Part shown: in pieces, positions 1,070 to 31,879 of the stretch
How the letters are laid out: every line of letters starts with the position of its first letter
Position numbering within the stretch: the stretch's first letter is position 1
Assembly: GCF_014202765.1 (NCBI RefSeq)
Contig: NZ_JACHHN010000001.1
Location: 394,118 to 458,117 of the forward strand
Direction: 5' to 3'
Length of the DNA: 64,000 nt
DNA from: Silvimonas terrae
Lineage (GTDB): Bacteria; Pseudomonadota; Gammaproteobacteria; Burkholderiales; Chitinibacteraceae
Notes under the pieces: model-generated
The model's database searches: none
The model's input: only the letters and a program-made list of their open reading frames with translations
What the model was told of the DNA's origin: nothing
Program-made: the position numbers and the translations under genes

Positions 1070-1440
1070 TGACCACGCCGCAAATCCAGATTGGCGCAGA
1101 GTCCCAGGGTGCAGCCGCCGCTATGGCGCCAGAAATGCTCACGGTGACGGATAGTGCAGGGCGCCAGATCGTCCTGAAAAAGCCGGGTGTACTTGCTCAG
1201 TACCGTGCAGTTGAAGCGATGGGTGCTTCAGCTGAAAACCGCGTGTACATGCAGATGGTGCTGCCGATCTTCTATGTCCAGATGATTGACGGTCTGCCGG
1301 TGGCCACGCCCTCCACCAAGCCGCAAATTGAAGCGCTGATCCAGCGTCTCGATGAGCATGGCCTGGCTGCGGTTATCGACGGCATGGCTCAGATGCAGCC
1401 GAAGTCCGAAGATGAACACAAGGATGCGGTAAAAGACTAG
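1069..1440 (+). CDS. Phage tail assembly chaperone (G-type, short product)
   Basis: This 123-residue acidic protein begins MTTPQIQIGAESQG; the ATG overlaps the stop of the upstream frame. It lies before the tape measure gene, where lambda G/GT-type tail assembly chaperones occur. Its stop at 1438-1440 is followed, in the -1 frame, by an open segment with the typical C-terminal chaperone look, so a longer frameshift product is likely (separate entry). The role, inferred from family and position, is to keep the tape measure protein soluble during tail assembly. The protein itself has no catalytic motif. A longer ORF from 991 exists but its extra residues look non-coding. Confidence 0.65.
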   Translation: MTTPQIQIGAESQGAAAAMAPEMLTVTDSAGRQIVLKKPGVLAQYRAVEAMGASAENRVYMQMVLPIFYVQMIDGLPVATPSTKPQIEALIQRLDEHGLAAVIDGMAQMQPKSEDEHKDAVKD

Positions 1441-1616
1441 CCACCGGGCCCATCAGGGAATGTCTTTGGTTGATCCGGAACGGCATTCCCGCCGAGGTGG
1501 CTTTTGACATGCCGGATGCCCAGCGCGAGGCATGGTGCATCGTGTTTTCTGAGCTGGAAAGCGGGCGCGAGTTTGACTGGAATGCCTGGCAGTTCAAGGA
1601 GCCAAAAGCACCATGA
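1434..1616 (+). CDS. GT-type extension of the tail assembly chaperone (-1 frameshift segment)
   Basis: From 1434 the -1 frame reads RLATGPIRECLWLIRNGIPA and continues to a TGA at 1614-1616, about 60 residues rich in acidic and aromatic residues (ends DWNAWQFKEPKAP). It lacks its own convincing start and ribosome site. The upstream frame ends GCG GTA AAA GAC TAG; slippage of the Lys tRNA by one base on A-AAA joins the two frames just before the TAG. This arrangement is known for lambda G/GT and many tailed phages. Here the slip site is an A run rather than a perfect XXXYYYZ heptamer, so the exact site is inferred. Its stop overlaps the ATG of the next gene. Confidence 0.6.
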   Translation, partial: RLATGPIRECLWLIRNGIPAEVAFDMPDAQREAWCIVFSELESGREFDWNAWQFKEPKAP

Positions 1617-2101
1617 AACAGCTATCCAGTCTAGGTGAACTGGCCGAAGTGTTCACCAAAAACACGCTTGGCATGATGGTCACCATGCAGGCCGGGCTTG
1701 AGAAAGCCGCTGTGGTCGTTGAAAAGGACGCAAAACAGCGCATTGGCGAATATCAGGAAGCGGAAGGACCGTTTCCTGCATGGGCCGAGCTATCTGATTC
1801 AACCAAAGAGGATCGGGCAAGACAGGGATACACCGAGAATGACCCGCTTTTACGGTCAGGTGACCTGCAGCGTTCGATCGAGCATGAAGTGGGATACACC
1901 GAGGCGGTGATCGGCTCGAAGTCGCCTGTCGCGGCGTACCAGGAGTTTGGCACTTACCGCATTCCGCCGCGGCCCTTTCTCGGGCCCGCTGCATTCCACA
2001 ACAAAAAGCGCATACAACGCATTCTTGGCGCGGCCATGGTCAGCGGCCTGGTTGGTGGCTCCCCGGTTCATGCACTGCTTGGGTACGACGGTGATGTCTA
2101 G
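1613..2101 (+). CDS. Phage tail completion / HK97 gp10-like protein
   Basis: A 162-residue protein with ATGA overlap to the frameshift product. It has an N-terminal helical part, the segment DPLLRSGDLQRSIEHEVG and a later VAAYQEFGTYRIPPRPFLGP. The 'LRSGDLxxSI ... YxxFGTxxxPPRPFL' pattern is characteristic of HK97 gp10-family or phage virion morphogenesis proteins, which act at the head-tail joint or tail terminator. Position between chaperone and tape measure is unusual but occurs in Mu-like and related tails. Family assignment is from motif memory only. Confidence 0.65.
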   Translation: MKQLSSLGELAEVFTKNTLGMMVTMQAGLEKAAVVVEKDAKQRIGEYQEAEGPFPAWAELSDSTKEDRARQGYTENDPLLRSGDLQRSIEHEVGYTEAVIGSKSPVAAYQEFGTYRIPPRPFLGPAAFHNKKRIQRILGAAMVSGLVGGSPVHALLGYDGDV

Positions 2102-2346
2102 CTGAACAGCGAAGCTACGATGACGTAGCACAGAAAGATGCCACAACCCAGAAAGAACAGGCCGATAAAGAGGCCAAGTATGCTGAGCTGAAGAATGGCA
2201 ATCCGTTGCAATAGCGGCATTTGATATTTGAATCGGAGCCGTTCTATCGGCTGGCGCGGGATATGCATCTGGCGAGGGTACTGCACCCAGCCGGTTTTAT
2301 CGGCCAGCCACTCCTGGAAGCGGTACCGCAAAGGAATTGTGGACAT
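2098..2346 (-). CDS. Small membrane protein on the opposite strand (hypothetical)
   Basis: An 82-residue frame fills the otherwise empty gap before the tape measure gene, antisense to the tail operon. The first 45 residues are basic; the last 35 form one or two strong hydrophobic segments (LQLSILGLFIGLFFLGCGIF). Its start codon region overlaps the tape measure start and no good ribosome site is seen, so a shorter start is possible. Single reversed membrane genes within tail operons are often prophage cargo such as superinfection-exclusion proteins, but nothing here proves that role. Confidence 0.4.
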   Translation of the reverse strand: MSTIPLRYRFQEWLADKTGWVQYPRQMHIPRQPIERLRFKYQMPLLQRIAILQLSILGLFIGLFFLGCGIFLCYVIVASLFS

Positions 2347-4201
2347 GTTTGAAGCCTATGAAGTCGCAGTTAAGCTGAAGCTGGTGGACCAGTTTAGCGG
2401 CGTAATGGGCATGGTAGTAAATCGCCTGACCAGTGCAAACCACTCCGCTACCGAATTGCAAAAAAAGCTGGATGGCATCGCCCGTACATTCAAGACCGGG
2501 CTGCTTGTGACCGGAGCCGGCTTTGGCATGGCCATGGCGCTGAAGGCCGCCACCAACGAGGCGGTGAAGTATGAGCAGCAACTCAACCGACTCAAGGCGT
2601 TGAACCTCGGTAGTGCAAATACTAACCATCTTGCCGACCGAGCCGCACAGATTGCCCGTACCACCAAGGGTATGAGCTATACCGAGTCGCTGAAGTTGAT
2701 GACGGAAGCTCAGTCCATCACCGGCAACGTTGAGCACACCCTTGATCTGGCGCCAGTGCTCGCCAAGATGCGTTTCGGCATGGAAACGTACATGTCCAGC
2801 GGTGGCAAAGGCGAGGGGCATGGAGCCCAGGCTGAACGCCAGTTTATGGACGTGGTGAAGGTCATGGAATTGCGCGGGCTGATGCGCAATTTCAACGAGG
2901 ACAAACTGAACTCCCTCGCGGATCTGTTTGTGAAGAACTATGCCGCATCTGGCGGCCAGGTGAAGCCCAGCGACTTCCTGGCAATGATGAAAACAGGCGG
3001 TATTGCCTCGAAAGGCATCAATGAAGATTTCATGTTTGCCTTAGGGCACATGATGCAGGAAAGCGGCGGCAACCGATCCGGTACCGCGCTGATGAGCACC
3101 TACCAGAACCTGATTGCCGGGCGCACGACGCAGCAGGTTGCCGAGCAACTGCAGAAATATGGCCTCCTGAATCCAGGCTCCATCGAATACGGCACTACTG
3201 GGCACATCAAGAAAATCAAGCCAGAAGCACTCAAGCAAACTGAGATGCTGATGGCGAACCCGCTGGATTACCTGAACAACGTCATCCTGCCGGCGCTGGC
3301 CAGCAAGGGTGTAGACATCAACAACCAGAATCAGGTGTTGATGAAGTTGAACCAGTTGACCAGTAACCGGACGGCGTCCAACTTTCTCGGCCAGTTGTAC
3401 ATGGACCGCACACCGCTGGCGAACTACGTCAAGCAGGCCCATGGTGCAATGGGCGTCAACCAGTTGTATGACCAGAGCGCCAACTCTGTGGTTGGCAAGG
3501 AAATCGACCTCCGGGCCAAGTTGCTCAACCTTGAGAAGACCCTGGGTGATGCCGCGTTGCCGATCCTGGTCAAAGCGCTCGAAACACTTGTGCCGCTGGT
3601 GCAGGAATTTGGTGCCGCACTGGAAAAGCATCCGACCTTGATCAAGGCGGTGATGTTCGGTTTTGCTGGCCTCGCCGCTTCGATGATGGTGGCAGGGCCG
3701 TTGATGATGCTGACTTCTGGCTTTAAGGCTGTTGGGCTGGCAGTTTCCGTGCTGAATGGTGGTGGCGTTGGCGGTTTGCTGACGCTGGCTGGCTCGCTTA
3801 CCAATATCTCCAGCCTGATCATGAAGATCGGTGCAATGGGTGGTGGCCTTGGCGCAGCCGCAATGGTGACCGGCGCTGGCTTGGGCGGTTATGCGGTAGG
3901 CACAGCCATCTACAACAACATGAAAACCGAGGACCAGGACGCCATTGGCCGCACCATCGCGCGCGGTCTAGCCCTGTTCGGCAGCAAGGACGCTGAAGAA
4001 GCTTTGGCGGCAGAACGCAAAAGTGGCTACGTGCAGCCCAAAGCAGCGCCAAACCCGCTTCAGGTTACAGTTCCGGTGCACATCGACGGCAAGAAGGTTG
4101 CCCAAGTCATGTCGCCATATCTTGCCGCCCAGACGGGCCGGGCAATGAGCGGCGGCGCGCTGGACGGCAATCTGATGGTGCCTATGCCAGGAACAAATTG
4201 A
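2345..4201 (+). CDS. Phage tail tape measure protein
   Basis: 618 residues from the ATG at 2345, preceded by AAAGGAATT; the upstream in-frame ATG at 2228 only adds residues with no support. The N-terminal half is helical (FEAYEVAVKLKLVDQFSGVM, a Mu-type tape measure start). Glycine/alanine-rich hydrophobic segments at about residues 425-540 (MMVAGPLMMLTSGFKAVGLA and GGLGAAAMVTGAGLGG) suit membrane-interacting tape measure regions. It sets tail length and lies after the chaperone as expected. At about 620 residues it predicts a fairly short tail. Confidence 0.85.
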   Translation: MFEAYEVAVKLKLVDQFSGVMGMVVNRLTSANHSATELQKKLDGIARTFKTGLLVTGAGFGMAMALKAATNEAVKYEQQLNRLKALNLGSANTNHLADRAAQIARTTKGMSYTESLKLMTEAQSITGNVEHTLDLAPVLAKMRFGMETYMSSGGKGEGHGAQAERQFMDVVKVMELRGLMRNFNEDKLNSLADLFVKNYAASGGQVKPSDFLAMMKTGGIASKGINEDFMFALGHMMQESGGNRSGTALMSTYQNLIAGRTTQQVAEQLQKYGLLNPGSIEYGTTGHIKKIKPEALKQTEMLMANPLDYLNNVILPALASKGVDINNQNQVLMKLNQLTSNRTASNFLGQLYMDRTPLANYVKQAHGAMGVNQLYDQSANSVVGKEIDLRAKLLNLEKTLGDAALPILVKALETLVPLVQEFGAALEKHPTLIKAVMFGFAGLAASMMVAGPLMMLTSGFKAVGLAVSVLNGGGVGGLLTLAGSLTNISSLIMKIGAMGGGLGAAAMVTGAGLGGYAVGTAIYNNMKTEDQDAIGRTIARGLALFGSKDAEEALAAERKSGYVQPKAAPNPLQVTVPVHIDGKKVAQVMSPYLAAQTGRAMSGGALDGNLMVPMPGTN

Positions 4202-24792: not shown

Positions 24793-24900
<108 letters not shown>

Positions 24901-25020
24901 CACCAACACCAACCCCGTAAACCATCTATGCGCAGGACGGGCGGTATGTCGGGTGTGGGCTGGGCCCGCGTTGTCGACTGCTCTGCTATGTTGAAATTCG
25001 ATAGTCAGCAGGGGCGGATC

Positions 25021-25323
25021 ATGTACAAGTTTTACATCGTCAGCCTGGCGTTGCTGGTGGTGTCTGGCTGCACCAGCAACAAGGGGCCGGCTGCGGCGCC
25101 GGCTGGACCAGAACCACAGGCACACTGTAATGCAGATGCGGTGCAGGCCCGCGTCGGGCAGCGGGCTGATCCGGATCAACTGGACGCCATTCGCCAGCAA
25201 GCAGATGCCAGAGTGCTGCGCGTGATCAAGCCGGGTGACGCAGTCACCATGGATTACAACGTGACCCGGTTGAATCTGGAAGTCGATGACGCGGGCGTCA
25301 TCAAAAAAGCCAGCTGCGGTTAA
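25021..25323 (+). CDS. Small lipoprotein, peptidase inhibitor I78-like
   Basis: 100 residues from the ATG at 25021 with a purine-rich site upstream. Signal peptide and lipobox VVSGC (C17), then a Pro/Ala linker. The body HCNADAVQARVGQRAD ... RVLRVIKPGDAVTMDYNVTR ... LNLEVDDAGVIKKASCG follows the I78 inhibitor family pattern (conserved C, Q-G motif, 'D.R..R.N...D..G.I....CG'). It would protect the envelope against serine proteases. Its stop overlaps the stop region of the convergent hemerythrin gene by four bases. Confidence 0.8.
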   Translation: MYKFYIVSLALLVVSGCTSNKGPAAAPAGPEPQAHCNADAVQARVGQRADPDQLDAIRQQADARVLRVIKPGDAVTMDYNVTRLNLEVDDAGVIKKASCG

Positions 25324-25781
25324 CCGGTGATGCCAGACCAGAAACGGTCCAGCCAGCCTTTTTTCTGCCACCTGGCTTGCGCGCCGCGCTCCAGGAAAAA
25401 TGACGCGTAGCGGGTATCGCCTTCCTGAATGTGATGCGTGAGCCAGTTGCGCAGAAAATGCAGCAATTCAAACGTCACGGCGTCGCCGGCCTCTACCCGT
25501 TTCTGGAACGCATGCAGATCCGAAATCAGGATCTCATGGTGCTGTTTGTGCTCTTCGTAATCCGGGTAACCCAGAATGCGCATCAGGCTTTCTTCCACGG
25601 TGAAATGGATGCGCGTGTAGTCCGCCAGTCGGCCCAGAATGTCTACCGAGGCCACCCGGCCTTGATGGCGGTGGATGGCCTCGTATAACTCGTTGAGCAA
25701 GTTCACCAGCACTTTGTGTTGTTCGTCGATTTCCTGAATACCCACCGACAGGCTGTCGTCCCACTGCACCAGCGTTTGCAT
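25320..25781 (-). CDS. Bacteriohemerythrin
   Basis: 153 residues with the full set of diiron ligands: H22 in DEQHK, H and E in RIHFTVEES, H in YEEHKQHHEIL, and H plus D in WLTHHIQEGDTRY. It binds O2 reversibly and serves oxygen sensing, storage or delivery in the cytoplasm. Divergent from the chemoreceptor gene with a 364-bp AT-rich gap; aerotaxis linkage is conceivable but not shown. Confidence 0.93.
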   Translation of the reverse strand: MQTLVQWDDSLSVGIQEIDEQHKVLVNLLNELYEAIHRHQGRVASVDILGRLADYTRIHFTVEESLMRILGYPDYEEHKQHHEILISDLHAFQKRVEAGDAVTFELLHFLRNWLTHHIQEGDTRYASFFLERGAQARWQKKGWLDRFWSGITG

Positions 25782-26145: not shown

Positions 26146-28479
26146 ATGTCTATCCAGAACCGCATTCTTCTATGGGTCGGCGGCCTTGTTGTTGCCGGCT
26201 TTCTTATCGCCTGGGGCCTGATTGCTGGTCTGGGCCTGACCAGTACCGGTGCCATTGCCGGTATCACTGTGGTGGTCTTGCTGGCCGTGCTGGGCGGCAT
26301 CTGGGCTGCTGTGGGGCTGACCCTCAAACCACTGCACCGTCTGCGCACCACGCTGACCACGCTCGTGGAAAAAGGGGGTGATCTCAATACCCGCGTAGAC
26401 GCTTCCGGCGCGCCGGAACTGGCGGATATTGCCAACGCCTTCAATCATTTTGTGTCTGATCTGCAAGTCACCTTCCGTGAAGTGCAGCGGGATATGGAAA
26501 GCCTTTCGCTGGGCCTGAAAGAACTCACCGGCGTGACCGCGCAACTGGTGAAAGACGCCCACGTGCAGAGCGACTTTGCGGCGGCGTCTGCTGCTGCTGT
26601 GGAAGAAATCACGGTCAGCATCACCCACATTGCCGATAACGCCTCTGATGTTGACGGCAACGTCAAGGAAACCACGCAACTCTCGCGCCAGAGCGCAGAG
26701 GCCGTGTTGCGCGTATCGGACGAAGTCTCCAGCATGGCGCAATCCATGCAGCAACTGGGCAGCACCATGACCGATCTGGGCAAGAACTCCCAGAAGATCG
26801 GCAGCATTGTGGTGGTGATCAAAGACATTGCCGAGCAAACCAATTTGCTGGCGCTGAATGCCGCCATTGAAGCGGCCCGCGCTGGTGAACAAGGCCGCGG
26901 TTTTGCCGTGGTGGCCGATGAAGTGCGCAAGCTGGCTGAACGTACCGCCAACGCCACGGTGGAAATTGCCAGCCTGATCGACTCGGTCAACAAAGAAACC
27001 CGCAAGGCCGTGGACAGCATGGCGGGCACGACCAGCCAGGTGTCTGCCAGCGTAGAAAAAGCCGATGTCGCGCGCGAACATATGCTGCAGATCGGCGCAC
27101 GTATGGATCAGATGGCCGACGTCATCCAGGGTATTGCCGACGCCACGCAAGAACAGACTTCTGCCGCCACCACCATGGCGCAATCGTCCGAACAGATCAA
27201 CGTGATGAGCCAGGCATCTGACTCGGCGCTGCAACAAGCCCGTCGCGCGCTGGAGGGCCTGGACAAACGCGCACGTGATTTGATGGGCGTGGTAGGGCGG
27301 TTCCGCCTGGAAGACATCGAAGTGTTGCACGGCTGGTTTGCCTCCAGCGGCGCCCGCGCCGTGGCAGAAATCAAGCTGCGCCTGAACCAGATGGGCCACC
27401 ACTGGGCCGACATGCATAGCGGCAAAGACGTGCCCGGCATGCTCAAGGCCGCCGTGGAGAAGGGCAAGCTGCCGACGGCGGCGGCATTTGGCGGGGTGAA
27501 GATCCAGAACTGGGCCGGCAAAGGGGTCCTGGCCGATCTGGGTGAAGTGGCCAATGAACAAGGCTGGAACCGCATCTTGCCGGCCGTGCTGGACAAAATG
27601 ATGCAGGCCGACGGCAAGTACGTGGCCGCACCGCTGGGTGTGGCGCGGGTGAACGTGCTGTGGGTCAACGCCAGCCTGGTCAAGCGCGTGGGCGTGACAC
27701 AAGCCCCCACCAGCTGGGATGAATTCTTTGTCGTGTGCGACAAGCTGGTGTCTGCCGGCATTACCCCGCTGGCGCATAGCGAGGTCAAATGGCAAGTGGC
27801 TACCCTGTTTGAATCTGTGGTGCTGGGTCTGTGCGGTGCGCAGTTCTATCTGTCTGCCTTTAGCAAACTGGAAGCGAGTGCGCTAAACGGCCCGCAAATG
27901 GCCCGCGCGCTGGAAACCTTCCGCCGCCTCAAAAAGTATTGCACGCCCGATTCAGTGGGCCGCGAATGGAACCTGGCCACGGCCGACGTCATTAACGGCC
28001 GCGCCGCCATGCAATTGATGGGCGACTGGGTCAAAGGTGAACTGGACGAAGCCAATCGCAAACCGGGTGAAGACTATCTGTTCTGGGCCGCACCATCGGT
28101 CGGTGGCGAATACAGTTTTGCGGCCGATACGCTGACCTTTTTCCGCCAGGATGACCCGGTGCGCCGCAAAGCCCAGCTGGACTTTGTACGCCTGCTGGTC
28201 AGCCACGAAGGTCAGTTGGCCTACAACAAACACAAAGGCAGCATCCCGGCCCGTACCGACGTCGATACCAACAAGCTGGACGCCTACGGCCGCGCATCCT
28301 CCCGCGACTTTAGCAATGCCGCCAGCCGCAACACGCTGGTGCCATCCTGGGCGCATAACATGGCGGTACAGGATGACCAGAAAAAGGCGTTGATCGAAGC
28401 GGTGGCCGAGTTCTGGACCAACGACAATATGACCCCGGCAGAAGGGGCACGCCGTCTGGCGGCAGCGGTGAATCGCTGA
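26146..28479 (+). CDS. Methyl-accepting chemotaxis protein fused to a C-terminal sugar-binding-protein domain
   Basis: 777 residues. Two adjacent transmembrane helices (about 8-31 and 35-59) are separated by only four residues, so there is no periplasmic sensor. A HAMP domain (~58-110) and MCP signalling domain follow, with the conserved tip ([20 protein letters not shown] at 228-247, then [20 protein letters not shown]). From ~393 to 777 the sequence changes to a type-1 extracellular solute-binding fold: [53 protein letters not shown], and [19 protein letters not shown], like glucose-type (GtsA/MalE family) binding proteins. It has no export signal, so the binding domain should be cytoplasmic. 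It would let the receptor sense an internal sugar. No CheR/CheB pentapeptide at the end. Confidence 0.9.
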
Positions 28480-28499: not shown

Positions 28500-28528
28500 A
28501 AAAACGGCAGCGTTGGCTGCCGTTTTTT
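28500..28528 (+). terminator. Terminator of the chemoreceptor gene
   Basis: AAAAACGGCAGC/GCTGCCGTTTTT stem with loop GTTG and T run, 20 bases past the stop. Confidence 0.85.
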
Positions 28529-30790: not shown

Positions 30791-31879
30791 ATGCATAGCC
30801 GCCTGTACGGCGTTGGTCTGACGATCACCATCTGCATTCTGGCCGCATGTAGCGGCCCCGCCGTCTCCCCGCCTGTGGCTGCCAGTGCCATCCCCACGCC
30901 CTCGCTGGCCAAAGCCTGGCAAGGCCAGTTGCTGATTGGTGCGGCGGTGGATGAAAAGAACATCAAAAGCCAGGGTGAGCTGATTGCCAACCAGTTCAGC
31001 AGCGTCGTGGCGGAAAACGCCATGAAACCCATGGCGACCGAACCGCGTGAAGGCGAATTTCATTTTGAAGCGGCCGACGCCATTGTCCGTTTTGCCCAAA
31101 GCCACGATATGGCCATTCGCGGTCACACGCTGCTCTGGCACCTGCACACGCCAGACTGGATGTGGCAAGGCCGGAACGGCCAGCCCGCAGATCGCAACCT
31201 GGTACTGGCGCGCCTGAAACGGCATATTGAAACCGAAGTAGGGCACTACAAAGGGCAGGTATACGTCTGGGACGTCGTCAACGAGATCATTGATGAGAAA
31301 CAAGCAGACTGCCTGCGTAACGACAAGTGGCACCAGGTGGTCGGCCCGGATTACGTGGATGAGGCCTTCCGCTACGCCCACGCCGCCGACCCCGCAGCGC
31401 GCCTGTTCATCAACGAATACTCCACCACGGAACCGGCCAAGCAACGCTGCCTGATCCGCGTAGTACAAGGCCTGCAAGCACGCGGCGTACCCATTAACGG
31501 CATCGGCCACCAGATGCACATCTCTGTGTTTTATCCGCGCGTAGAAGAGATCGACCAAACCCTGACCGCCTTTGCCCGGCTGGGCCTGGAAAACCAGATC
31601 ACGGAAATCGACATGAGCTTGTACAAGTGGAAAGACAACCGCCTGTACGACACCCGCGAGAACCTGCTGGCCCTGCAAGCCCGCCGCTATGGCGACATCA
31701 TGCGCATGATCCACAACCACCCGGACGTCACCGCCGTAACGTGGTGGGGCGTCACGGATGCCAGCACCTGGCTCAATCAGGATGCCCCGGCCGATCACCA
31801 TGACCAGCCGCTGCTGTTCGATGCCCAAGGCCAACCCAAAGGCGCGTTCTGGGCGGTGTTCAACGCGGCCCGGCGGTAA
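30791..31879 (+). CDS. GH10 endo-1,4-beta-xylanase, predicted lipoprotein
   Basis: 362 residues. Signal peptide with lipobox ILAAC (C20), then a Ser/Pro/Ala linker. GH10 barrel: acid/base E165 in VYVWDVVNEIID and nucleophile E272 in NQITEIDMSLYKW; conserved GHTLLWH and TWWGVTD motifs. It would cut xylan at the cell surface and point to a plant-matter lifestyle. No carbohydrate-binding module. Ribosome site AAAGGGATG upstream. Its coupling with a TPR glycosyltransferase is unexpected. Confidence 0.95.
   Translation: MHSRLYGVGLTITICILAACSGPAVSPPVAASAIPTPSLAKAWQGQLLIGAAVDEKNIKSQGELIANQFSSVVAENAMKPMATEPREGEFHFEAADAIVRFAQSHDMAIRGHTLLWHLHTPDWMWQGRNGQPADRNLVLARLKRHIETEVGHYKGQVYVWDVVNEIIDEKQADCLRNDKWHQVVGPDYVDEAFRYAHAADPAARLFINEYSTTEPAKQRCLIRVVQGLQARGVPINGIGHQMHISVFYPRVEEIDQTLTAFARLGLENQITEIDMSLYKWKDNRLYDTRENLLALQARRYGDIMRMIHNHPDVTAVTWWGVTDASTWLNQDAPADHHDQPLLFDAQGQPKGAFWAVFNAARR

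Follow-up and report, generated by a model that had tools for sequence, protein, structure and literature searches.

A Silvimonas terrae chemoreceptor with a C-terminal solute-binding domain predicted to lie in the cytoplasm

Introduction

In sugar chemotaxis, the classic partners on the outside are binding proteins; the maltose-binding protein, for instance, acts on Tar. Periplasmic-binding-protein-like folds also serve as cytosolic sensors in LacI- and LysR-type regulators, and a small zinc-binding domain, CZB, is found in some MCPs. As far as the available text of each source goes, the CZB domain is C-terminal in 39% of pentapeptide-bearing CZB receptors (PMC7390727), GltB binds the sensor domains of GtrS, PctA and PA2788 (PMC7927077), and SBP-type domains occur in other signalling proteins (PMC9602780).

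Sensor domains at the C-terminus are familiar from other MCPs, and what would be new here is a solute-binding protein as that sensor: no description of an MCP with a C-terminal solute-binding protein was found in the open-access literature, as far as its text was available, which is weak evidence of novelty. Here, we describe such a receptor from Silvimonas terrae. The window is the whole stretch of DNA that was analysed, 64,000 nucleotides long, and the window protein is the receptor encoded in it; proteins that join both halves are called fused, and binding proteins without an MCP half standalone.

Gene and domain architecture

The receptor gene is a single frame from ATG to stop, without internal stop codons, and it is laid out as follows.

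26146..28479, + strand: chemoreceptor gene with C-terminal solute-binding domain (777 aa; ATG at 26146, stop at 28477-28479)
26164..26316, + strand: membrane hairpin, residues ~7-29 and 34-57, with a four-residue loop (hydropathy, AlphaFold model)
26317..26466, + strand: HAMP domain, residues 58-107 (Pfam PF00672)
26467..27309, + strand: MCP signalling hairpin, residues 108-388, arms of ~140 residues each, ending ...GRFRL (Pfam and alignment)
27298..27321, + strand: linker-free junction between hairpin and binding domain, residues 385-392, FRL then EDIE
27310..28476, + strand: GtsA/ppGBP-type solute-binding domain, residues 389-777 (sequence match, model, structure comparison)
28504..28528, + strand: possible terminator, an inverted repeat with 8-bp stem and 4-base loop, flanked by A/T runs (by eye only)

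All Pfam matches of the window protein lie above their cut-offs: HAMP (PF00672) at residues 58-107 (E 2.3e-9, 37.9 bits against a cut-off of 25), MCPsignal (PF00015) at 193-353 (E 9.6e-46, 156.2 bits against 34.6), SBP_bac_1 at 432-690 (E 1.5e-21, 78.2 bits against 26) and SBP_bac_8 at 428-709 (E 6.6e-20, 72.5 bits against 27). Hydropathy marks residues 7-25 and 40-58 as hydrophobic segments and finds no such segment beyond residue 120, including the part between that residue and the binding domain, and in the AlphaFold model helices 3-29 and 34-75 leave the four-residue loop between them. The protein has the attributes of an MCP, i.e., a HAMP domain, a membrane anchor (by Pfam, hydropathy and model) and a signalling domain with the conserved hairpin tip, whose motif was found in each of the 51 fused proteins of the census below; whereas a canonical MCP carries a periplasmic sensor domain between its membrane helices, this one has the four-residue loop. 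With its arms of ~140 residues, the signalling hairpin would fit what we take to be the 40H class. The C-terminal half has both the fold and the profile of an ABC-type sugar-binding protein (SBP_bac_1/SBP_bac_8, GtsA branch) but, rather than being exported through a signal peptide as a separate periplasmic protein, it is joined to the MCP hairpin. The paired membrane helices with their short loop, the HAMP domain with the MCP hairpin, and the solute-binding fold at the C-terminus, which an earlier note had read from the sequence, are all borne out.

The possible terminator sits ~25 bases 3' of the receptor stop codon and is absent from the output of the pattern scan, whose three terminator-like matches were no better than shuffles; the same scan found no promoter-like site. 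Other observations in the window include a hemerythrin-domain gene divergent from the receptor (25320-25781, - strand), related to a neighbour in one further stretch (L148, same genus) among the 23 compared, a gene for a GH10-type glycosyl hydrolase (xylanase family) ~2.3 kb downstream of the receptor (30791-31879, + strand), and simple repeats at ~24800-24920, upstream of a glyceraldehyde-3-phosphate dehydrogenase gene, which read VAVAVA/VEVEVE in one frame and FNFN/GNGN in another. Besides the receptor, no gene family was common to more than 4 of the 23 neighbourhoods compared with a simple gene caller, which missed the fused gene in two stretches (L150 and L167), and thus the neighbours name no ligand.

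Fold of the C-terminal domain

Over residues 3-387 of its 389, the C-terminal part aligns with the P. putida CSV86 protein ppGBP at an E of 2.9e-84. Structure prediction and comparison with GtsA and MalE, proposed by the earlier note, were run on residues 384-777; the AlphaFold model has a mean pLDDT of 92.1 and a solute-binding fold whose best solved match is ppGBP itself (5dvj; Z 54.8, rmsd 2.3, 390 aligned residues, 38% identity). The top six structures are ppGBP and other glucose-binding proteins (Z 53-55, rmsd 1.7-2.4, 385-390 aligned), followed at Z ~36-41 by galactose-, chitin-oligosaccharide- and xylobiose-binding proteins. Of the likeness to GtsA/MalE-type proteins claimed in the earlier note, the GtsA/ppGBP part stands as the nearest relationship, whereas MalE-type proteins are more distant (e.g., 6dtq, with Z 34.1, rmsd 3.0, 366 aligned and 14% identity); likewise, the fold was correctly placed at the C-terminus, but its start moves from residue 393 to ~389-391. 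In the full-length model, most of residues 123-352 and the stretch 379-387 have a pLDDT below 50, and with its MCP part at such low confidence this model is uninformative on how the binding domain is seated against the hairpin.

The joint between receptor and binding protein

Profile matches in the genome of the window number 28 for the MCP domain (one of which runs over an in-frame stop) and 11 for the CheW domain. Its other MCPs number 26, of which 24 are readable at the tip (L139 and L186 are not) and 15 end exactly 151 residues past the tip asparagine; those of standard length finish with F/Y, a polar residue and then L/I/M/V. In the window protein, the residue at this distance from the tip asparagine is 388, the last of a ...GRFRL end that resembles how many of these MCPs terminate, and the binding domain starts right after it. 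This spacing is identical, without linker, insertion or deletion, in 51/51 fused proteins, and the four residues past the hairpin read ADIE, GDIE, ADVE, EDIE, EDIT, EDIS or EDIV. The standalone relative L200 reads ...AQAADIEVLHWW following its signal-peptide-like stretch, from which the fusion looks like the end of an MCP followed by a mature binding protein. Since the joint has undergone no change of length in any descendant, its conservation suggests that the register at this point matters.

Two more receptor loci of this genome deserve mention in their own right. The 606-aa MCP encoded at L185 (G000:C2:137500-142000, ORF 1359-3179, - strand) extends ~200 residues beyond its signalling domain, which ends at residue 398, and this extension gave no convincing Pfam match, making it a second receptor with an unnamed C-terminal domain. 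The MCP-domain match at G000:C4:400494-400994 (L182) runs over an in-frame TAA, possibly marking a broken receptor gene.

Distribution and origin of the fusion

The survey of homologues for conserved fusion order, also proposed by the earlier note, returned 51 fused genes in 35 of 43 Chitinibacteraceae genomes (hand count), all having a binding half at least 52% identical and a frame of 775-883 codons. The eight genomes without a fused gene comprise all three of genus g9 and five of genus g7, in which four out of nine genomes do have one. The Silvimonas amylolytica copy is 96% identical to the window protein in the binding half, and the genome of the window holds a second fused gene (L002) that is 52% identical in the same half.

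Searches with the binding half in four overlapping genome samples found no fused gene outside Chitinibacteraceae. These samples comprised 41 genomes of relatives (E <= 1e-60), 321 of the class (1e-115), 399 of the order (1e-100) and 398 of the phylum (1e-50); in the last three, ~4-5 candidates were scored per genome, and only the phylum threshold was loose, so distant or rare fusions may be missed. The longest frame of the phylum sample outside the genome of the window had 539 aa, and the best 80 loci of named genomes include three fused ones (L038-L040), all from Chitinibacteraceae, and 77 unfused. Across 31 genomes, SBP_bac_8 had three matches in frames longer than 600 aa, two of them being the fused genes of the window's genome. 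The third (G147) was rejected as a fusion, because its stop-to-stop frame is over-long and the binding protein in it ordinary, and so was a likewise over-long 1224-aa frame of G1098, which encloses a binding protein whose start resembles a signal peptide.

In a tree of the MCP half (279-residue core; 28 fused proteins and 16 other MCPs, with outgroups taken from the window's genome only), the fused proteins form one clade with support of 100/99. A first tree with 24 other MCPs required two changes of the fused label and recovered one origin in 36% of bootstraps; long branches had disturbed it, and the rebuilt tree was restricted to the 16 MCPs that end 151 or 153 residues past the tip, leaving out the divergent L175, L180, L182, L183, L184, L185, L187 and L188. 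The binding half gives the same picture, with one fused clade both in a tree of 28 fused and 24 standalone rows (100/99) and in a larger one of 51 fused and 20 standalone rows (100/97). The standalone rows were 23 of 83 plus ppGBP in the smaller tree, and 18 of 83 plus ppGBP and L200 in the larger one, the 83 being loci with at least 35% identity (L006, at 28%, was left out). The window-type clade appears in the trees of both halves, with 13 rows in both small trees and 20 in the large one. As both halves are monophyletic among the rows sampled, their history fits one fusion followed by later duplication.

Where the binding domain lies

Thirty of 31 fused rows (28 genes plus three named copies) have no membrane segment beyond residue 120 by hydropathy; the exception, L012, has a single window just above the cut-off, inside the binding domain. 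The first membrane helix falls under the cut-off in 5/31 rows, so that the anchor is weakly predicted in some members. Since the HAMP domain and the signalling tip can work only in the cytoplasm, a chain without further crossing would keep its C-terminus in the cytoplasm.

The cysteines point the same way. Recounted on 100 distinct standalone domains (match E <= 1e-30), every one has exactly two cysteines, at ppGBP positions 288 and 356, and none elsewhere; this conservation leads us to presume that C288 and C356 form a disulfide. The pair occurs in 0/51 fused domains, all of which have one to five cysteines at other positions. Position 356 is a tyrosine in 51/51, and position 288 is still a cysteine in 26. 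In the window protein, Y714 and F646 replace the pair, and its own cysteines are C531, C563 and C599. This pattern suggests the trace expected from a move into the reducing cytoplasm and, given that the fused proteins form one clade, it records one history rather than 51 independent events. The cytoplasmic placement advanced by the earlier note is supported: hydropathy reveals neither a third membrane segment nor an outside placement, and topology and cysteines together suggest a binding domain inside the cell.

The binding pocket

Twelve ppGBP residues contact glucose, according to the available text of PMC7927077, and all twelve letters were found in place in the ppGBP sequence used as reference. 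The window protein keeps six of them and replaces the other six, as listed here with ppGBP positions in brackets.

W397, W608, W628, D661, K697, H737: contacts kept (W36, W250, W270, D303, K339, H379)
G396, G402, S425, A447, G449, A659: contacts replaced (W35G, E41G, G68S, Q90A, K92G, N301A)

The kept residues are the same six that are invariant in 51/51 fused proteins. Q90 and N301 are alanine in 51/51, and K92 is glycine in 46 and arginine in five; W35 is retained in 21, glycine in 21 and serine in nine, and E41 is retained in 31 and glycine in 20. Two further positions, N141 and H143, are kept in 79/83 and 82/83 standalone rows, respectively, and are always glycine and alanine in the fused proteins. 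In addition, the loop beside the G68 contact is at least three residues shorter in the 28/28 fused proteins aligned.

In P. aeruginosa GltB, according to the part of PMC7927077 available, alanine at the W35, W36 or D303 positions abolished the glucose-induced response, and at the K92 or W270 positions it approximately halved it. By these data, two of the three most needed residues are kept in the fused domains and the third is lost in the window protein. With Q90, K92 and N301 replaced in 51/51, the predicted pocket probably does not bind glucose in the ppGBP manner and, with six of twelve contacts differing in the window protein, a label such as 'GtsA/MalE-like' must not be taken to mean that the domain binds glucose or maltose. 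In our reading, the pocket is constrained by a different ligand and is roomier on one side.

Nearest unfused relatives

Just outside the fused clade branch two standalone proteins, L030 and L200 (genera g7 and g8), both on long branches. They keep the cysteine pair and have a signal-peptide-like start (by eye), and both are encoded behind an ftsK gene (Pfam). No ABC permease was noticed among their neighbouring frames, and what was seen instead was a sodium:solute symporter in L189. Their pockets have T or M at Q90, G at K92, A or D at N301, G at N141, and S or A at H143. Part of the alteration is already present in these two pockets, so the shift in ligand probably started outside the cell; as far as two sequences can tell, this argues against a cytosol-only ligand such as a sugar phosphate.

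Among the unfused relatives sampled, none is nearer than the orphan binding proteins encoded behind ftsK at L189 (7230-8540, - strand) and L200, which come from two genera. The odds seem to us about even that an orphan secreted binding protein of this kind lost its signal peptide, became joined to the last residue of an MCP and now reads the cytosolic pool of imported sugar. A different arrangement was observed at L146 (6233-9894, - strand) and L005, where a GtsA-like binding protein adjoins a response regulator-like frame and a histidine kinase, reminiscent of GltB-GtrS-GltR.

Proposed function and alternative explanations

Taking location, ligand and coupling together, we infer, with a probability of roughly 0.62, that the receptor senses a sugar-like ligand in the cytosol and is coupled to CheA through the linker-free joint. 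The N-terminal hairpin would be a membrane anchor only, and the signalling hairpin would hang into the cytoplasm and return to its membrane-near end, where the final residue of the returning helix would run straight into a former periplasmic binding protein that lacks its signal peptide. A sugar-like molecule bound from the cytosol would close the two lobes and, there being no linker, the closure would be passed on to the hairpin base and HAMP, changing CheA activity. The pocket would derive from that of a glucose-binding protein in altered form, its ligand probably not being glucose bound in the ppGBP manner; our best guess is a sugar or amino sugar without phosphate that is imported by these bacteria, many of which degrade chitin. 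An unphosphorylated sugar can probably reach the cytosol, since the standalone relative L004 has genes for a porin, a permease and an ABC ATPase in its vicinity.

Against this reading stand the replacements of Q90, K92 and N301 in 51/51, together with W35 and E41 in the window protein, by which sugar binding is not assured; conservation alone would also fit a protein-docking or scaffold role. An unlikely alternative, which survives better than the rest, is that the domain, though cytoplasmic, has exchanged small molecules for a protein partner, which might be a chemotaxis protein, a PTS component or the ATPase of a transporter. The three contacts always replaced and the shortened loop beside G68 would agree with this, but the six original contacts, three tryptophans among them, are invariant in every fused protein, and contact columns are invariant more often than the rest (8/12 against 83/384 overall in the 51 fused proteins; hypergeometric P 0.0008, a guide only, as the rows are related). 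Moreover, some of the pocket changes are already found in standalone relatives whose start resembles a signal peptide.

We regard it as improbable that the domain is a passive spacer or the decaying passenger of an accidental fusion, even though it has no known ligand and 8/43 genomes of the family do without the fused gene. Its 51 descendants are intact, form one clade and show no indel at the junction, and in five within-genus pairs dN/dS is 0.027-0.082 for the binding half, against 0.015-0.120 for the MCP half and 0.18-0.53 for the membrane hairpin, values that are rough since dS is high (0.35-1.2). Given that the hairpin evolves faster and the binding half slowly, the former looks like an anchor, and the latter is kept under purifying selection.

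Less probable still is that the receptor senses sugar outside, with its C-terminal domain brought to the periplasm by an unusual topology. The unfused relatives do look exported, a hydrophobic stretch preceding the domain in 82/83 of them (the other one, L050, is truncated at the edge of its locus), but a periplasmic domain would require either the third membrane segment that hydropathy lacks or HAMP and the CheA-binding tip outside, and the fused domains have all lost the cysteine pair and carry other cysteines. Finally, the joining of two genes by assembly or annotation, for which no supporting point was found, is rejected by the census, with its 51 genes in 35 genomes, several of which are single-contig assemblies; moreover, the frame of the window protein has neither stop nor frameshift.

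Significance and comparison with known systems

Under the preferred reading, that of a receptor for a cytosolic sugar-like ligand, a binding protein has apparently become a covalently attached sensor on the inside, and 35/43 sampled genomes of the family retain it. It would be a protein domain that switched compartment and left its trace in the cysteine pattern, and it would offer a testable model of metabolism-linked taxis, in which one protein could tie swimming direction to uptake without the phosphotransferase system; if true, cells would follow uptake and not outside concentration. The direct joint would then be a natural test of lobe closure driving an MCP from its C-terminal end, for which it gives a linker-free input module.

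The periplasmic glucose-binding proteins of the ABC importers, GtsA/GltB/ppGBP (5dvf, 5dvi, 5dvj), share with the fused domain the fold over its whole length and the six contacts kept in 51/51. In contrast to them, the fused domain has no signal peptide, sits on an MCP, has lost the cysteine pair, has three contacts replaced and has a shorter loop at G68. The transmembrane MCPs with a periplasmic domain have the same two membrane helices and HAMP domain, and the hairpin has the length found in 15/26 other MCPs; unlike in them, a four-residue loop takes the place of the periplasmic sensor, and the sensor is C-terminal. MCPs with a C-terminal CZB domain also place the sensor after the signalling domain, whereas here it is a whole two-lobed binding protein of 389 residues, attached without linker. 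The LacI- and LysR-type regulators differ in that theirs are other subclasses of the fold, fused to DNA-binding domains. The closest parallel in function would be the maltose-binding protein with Tar and GltB with GtrS, where a sugar-binding protein of the same fold informs a receptor about sugar; however, those binding proteins dock from the periplasm as separate partners, and the one described here is covalently attached and, as we infer, inside the cell.
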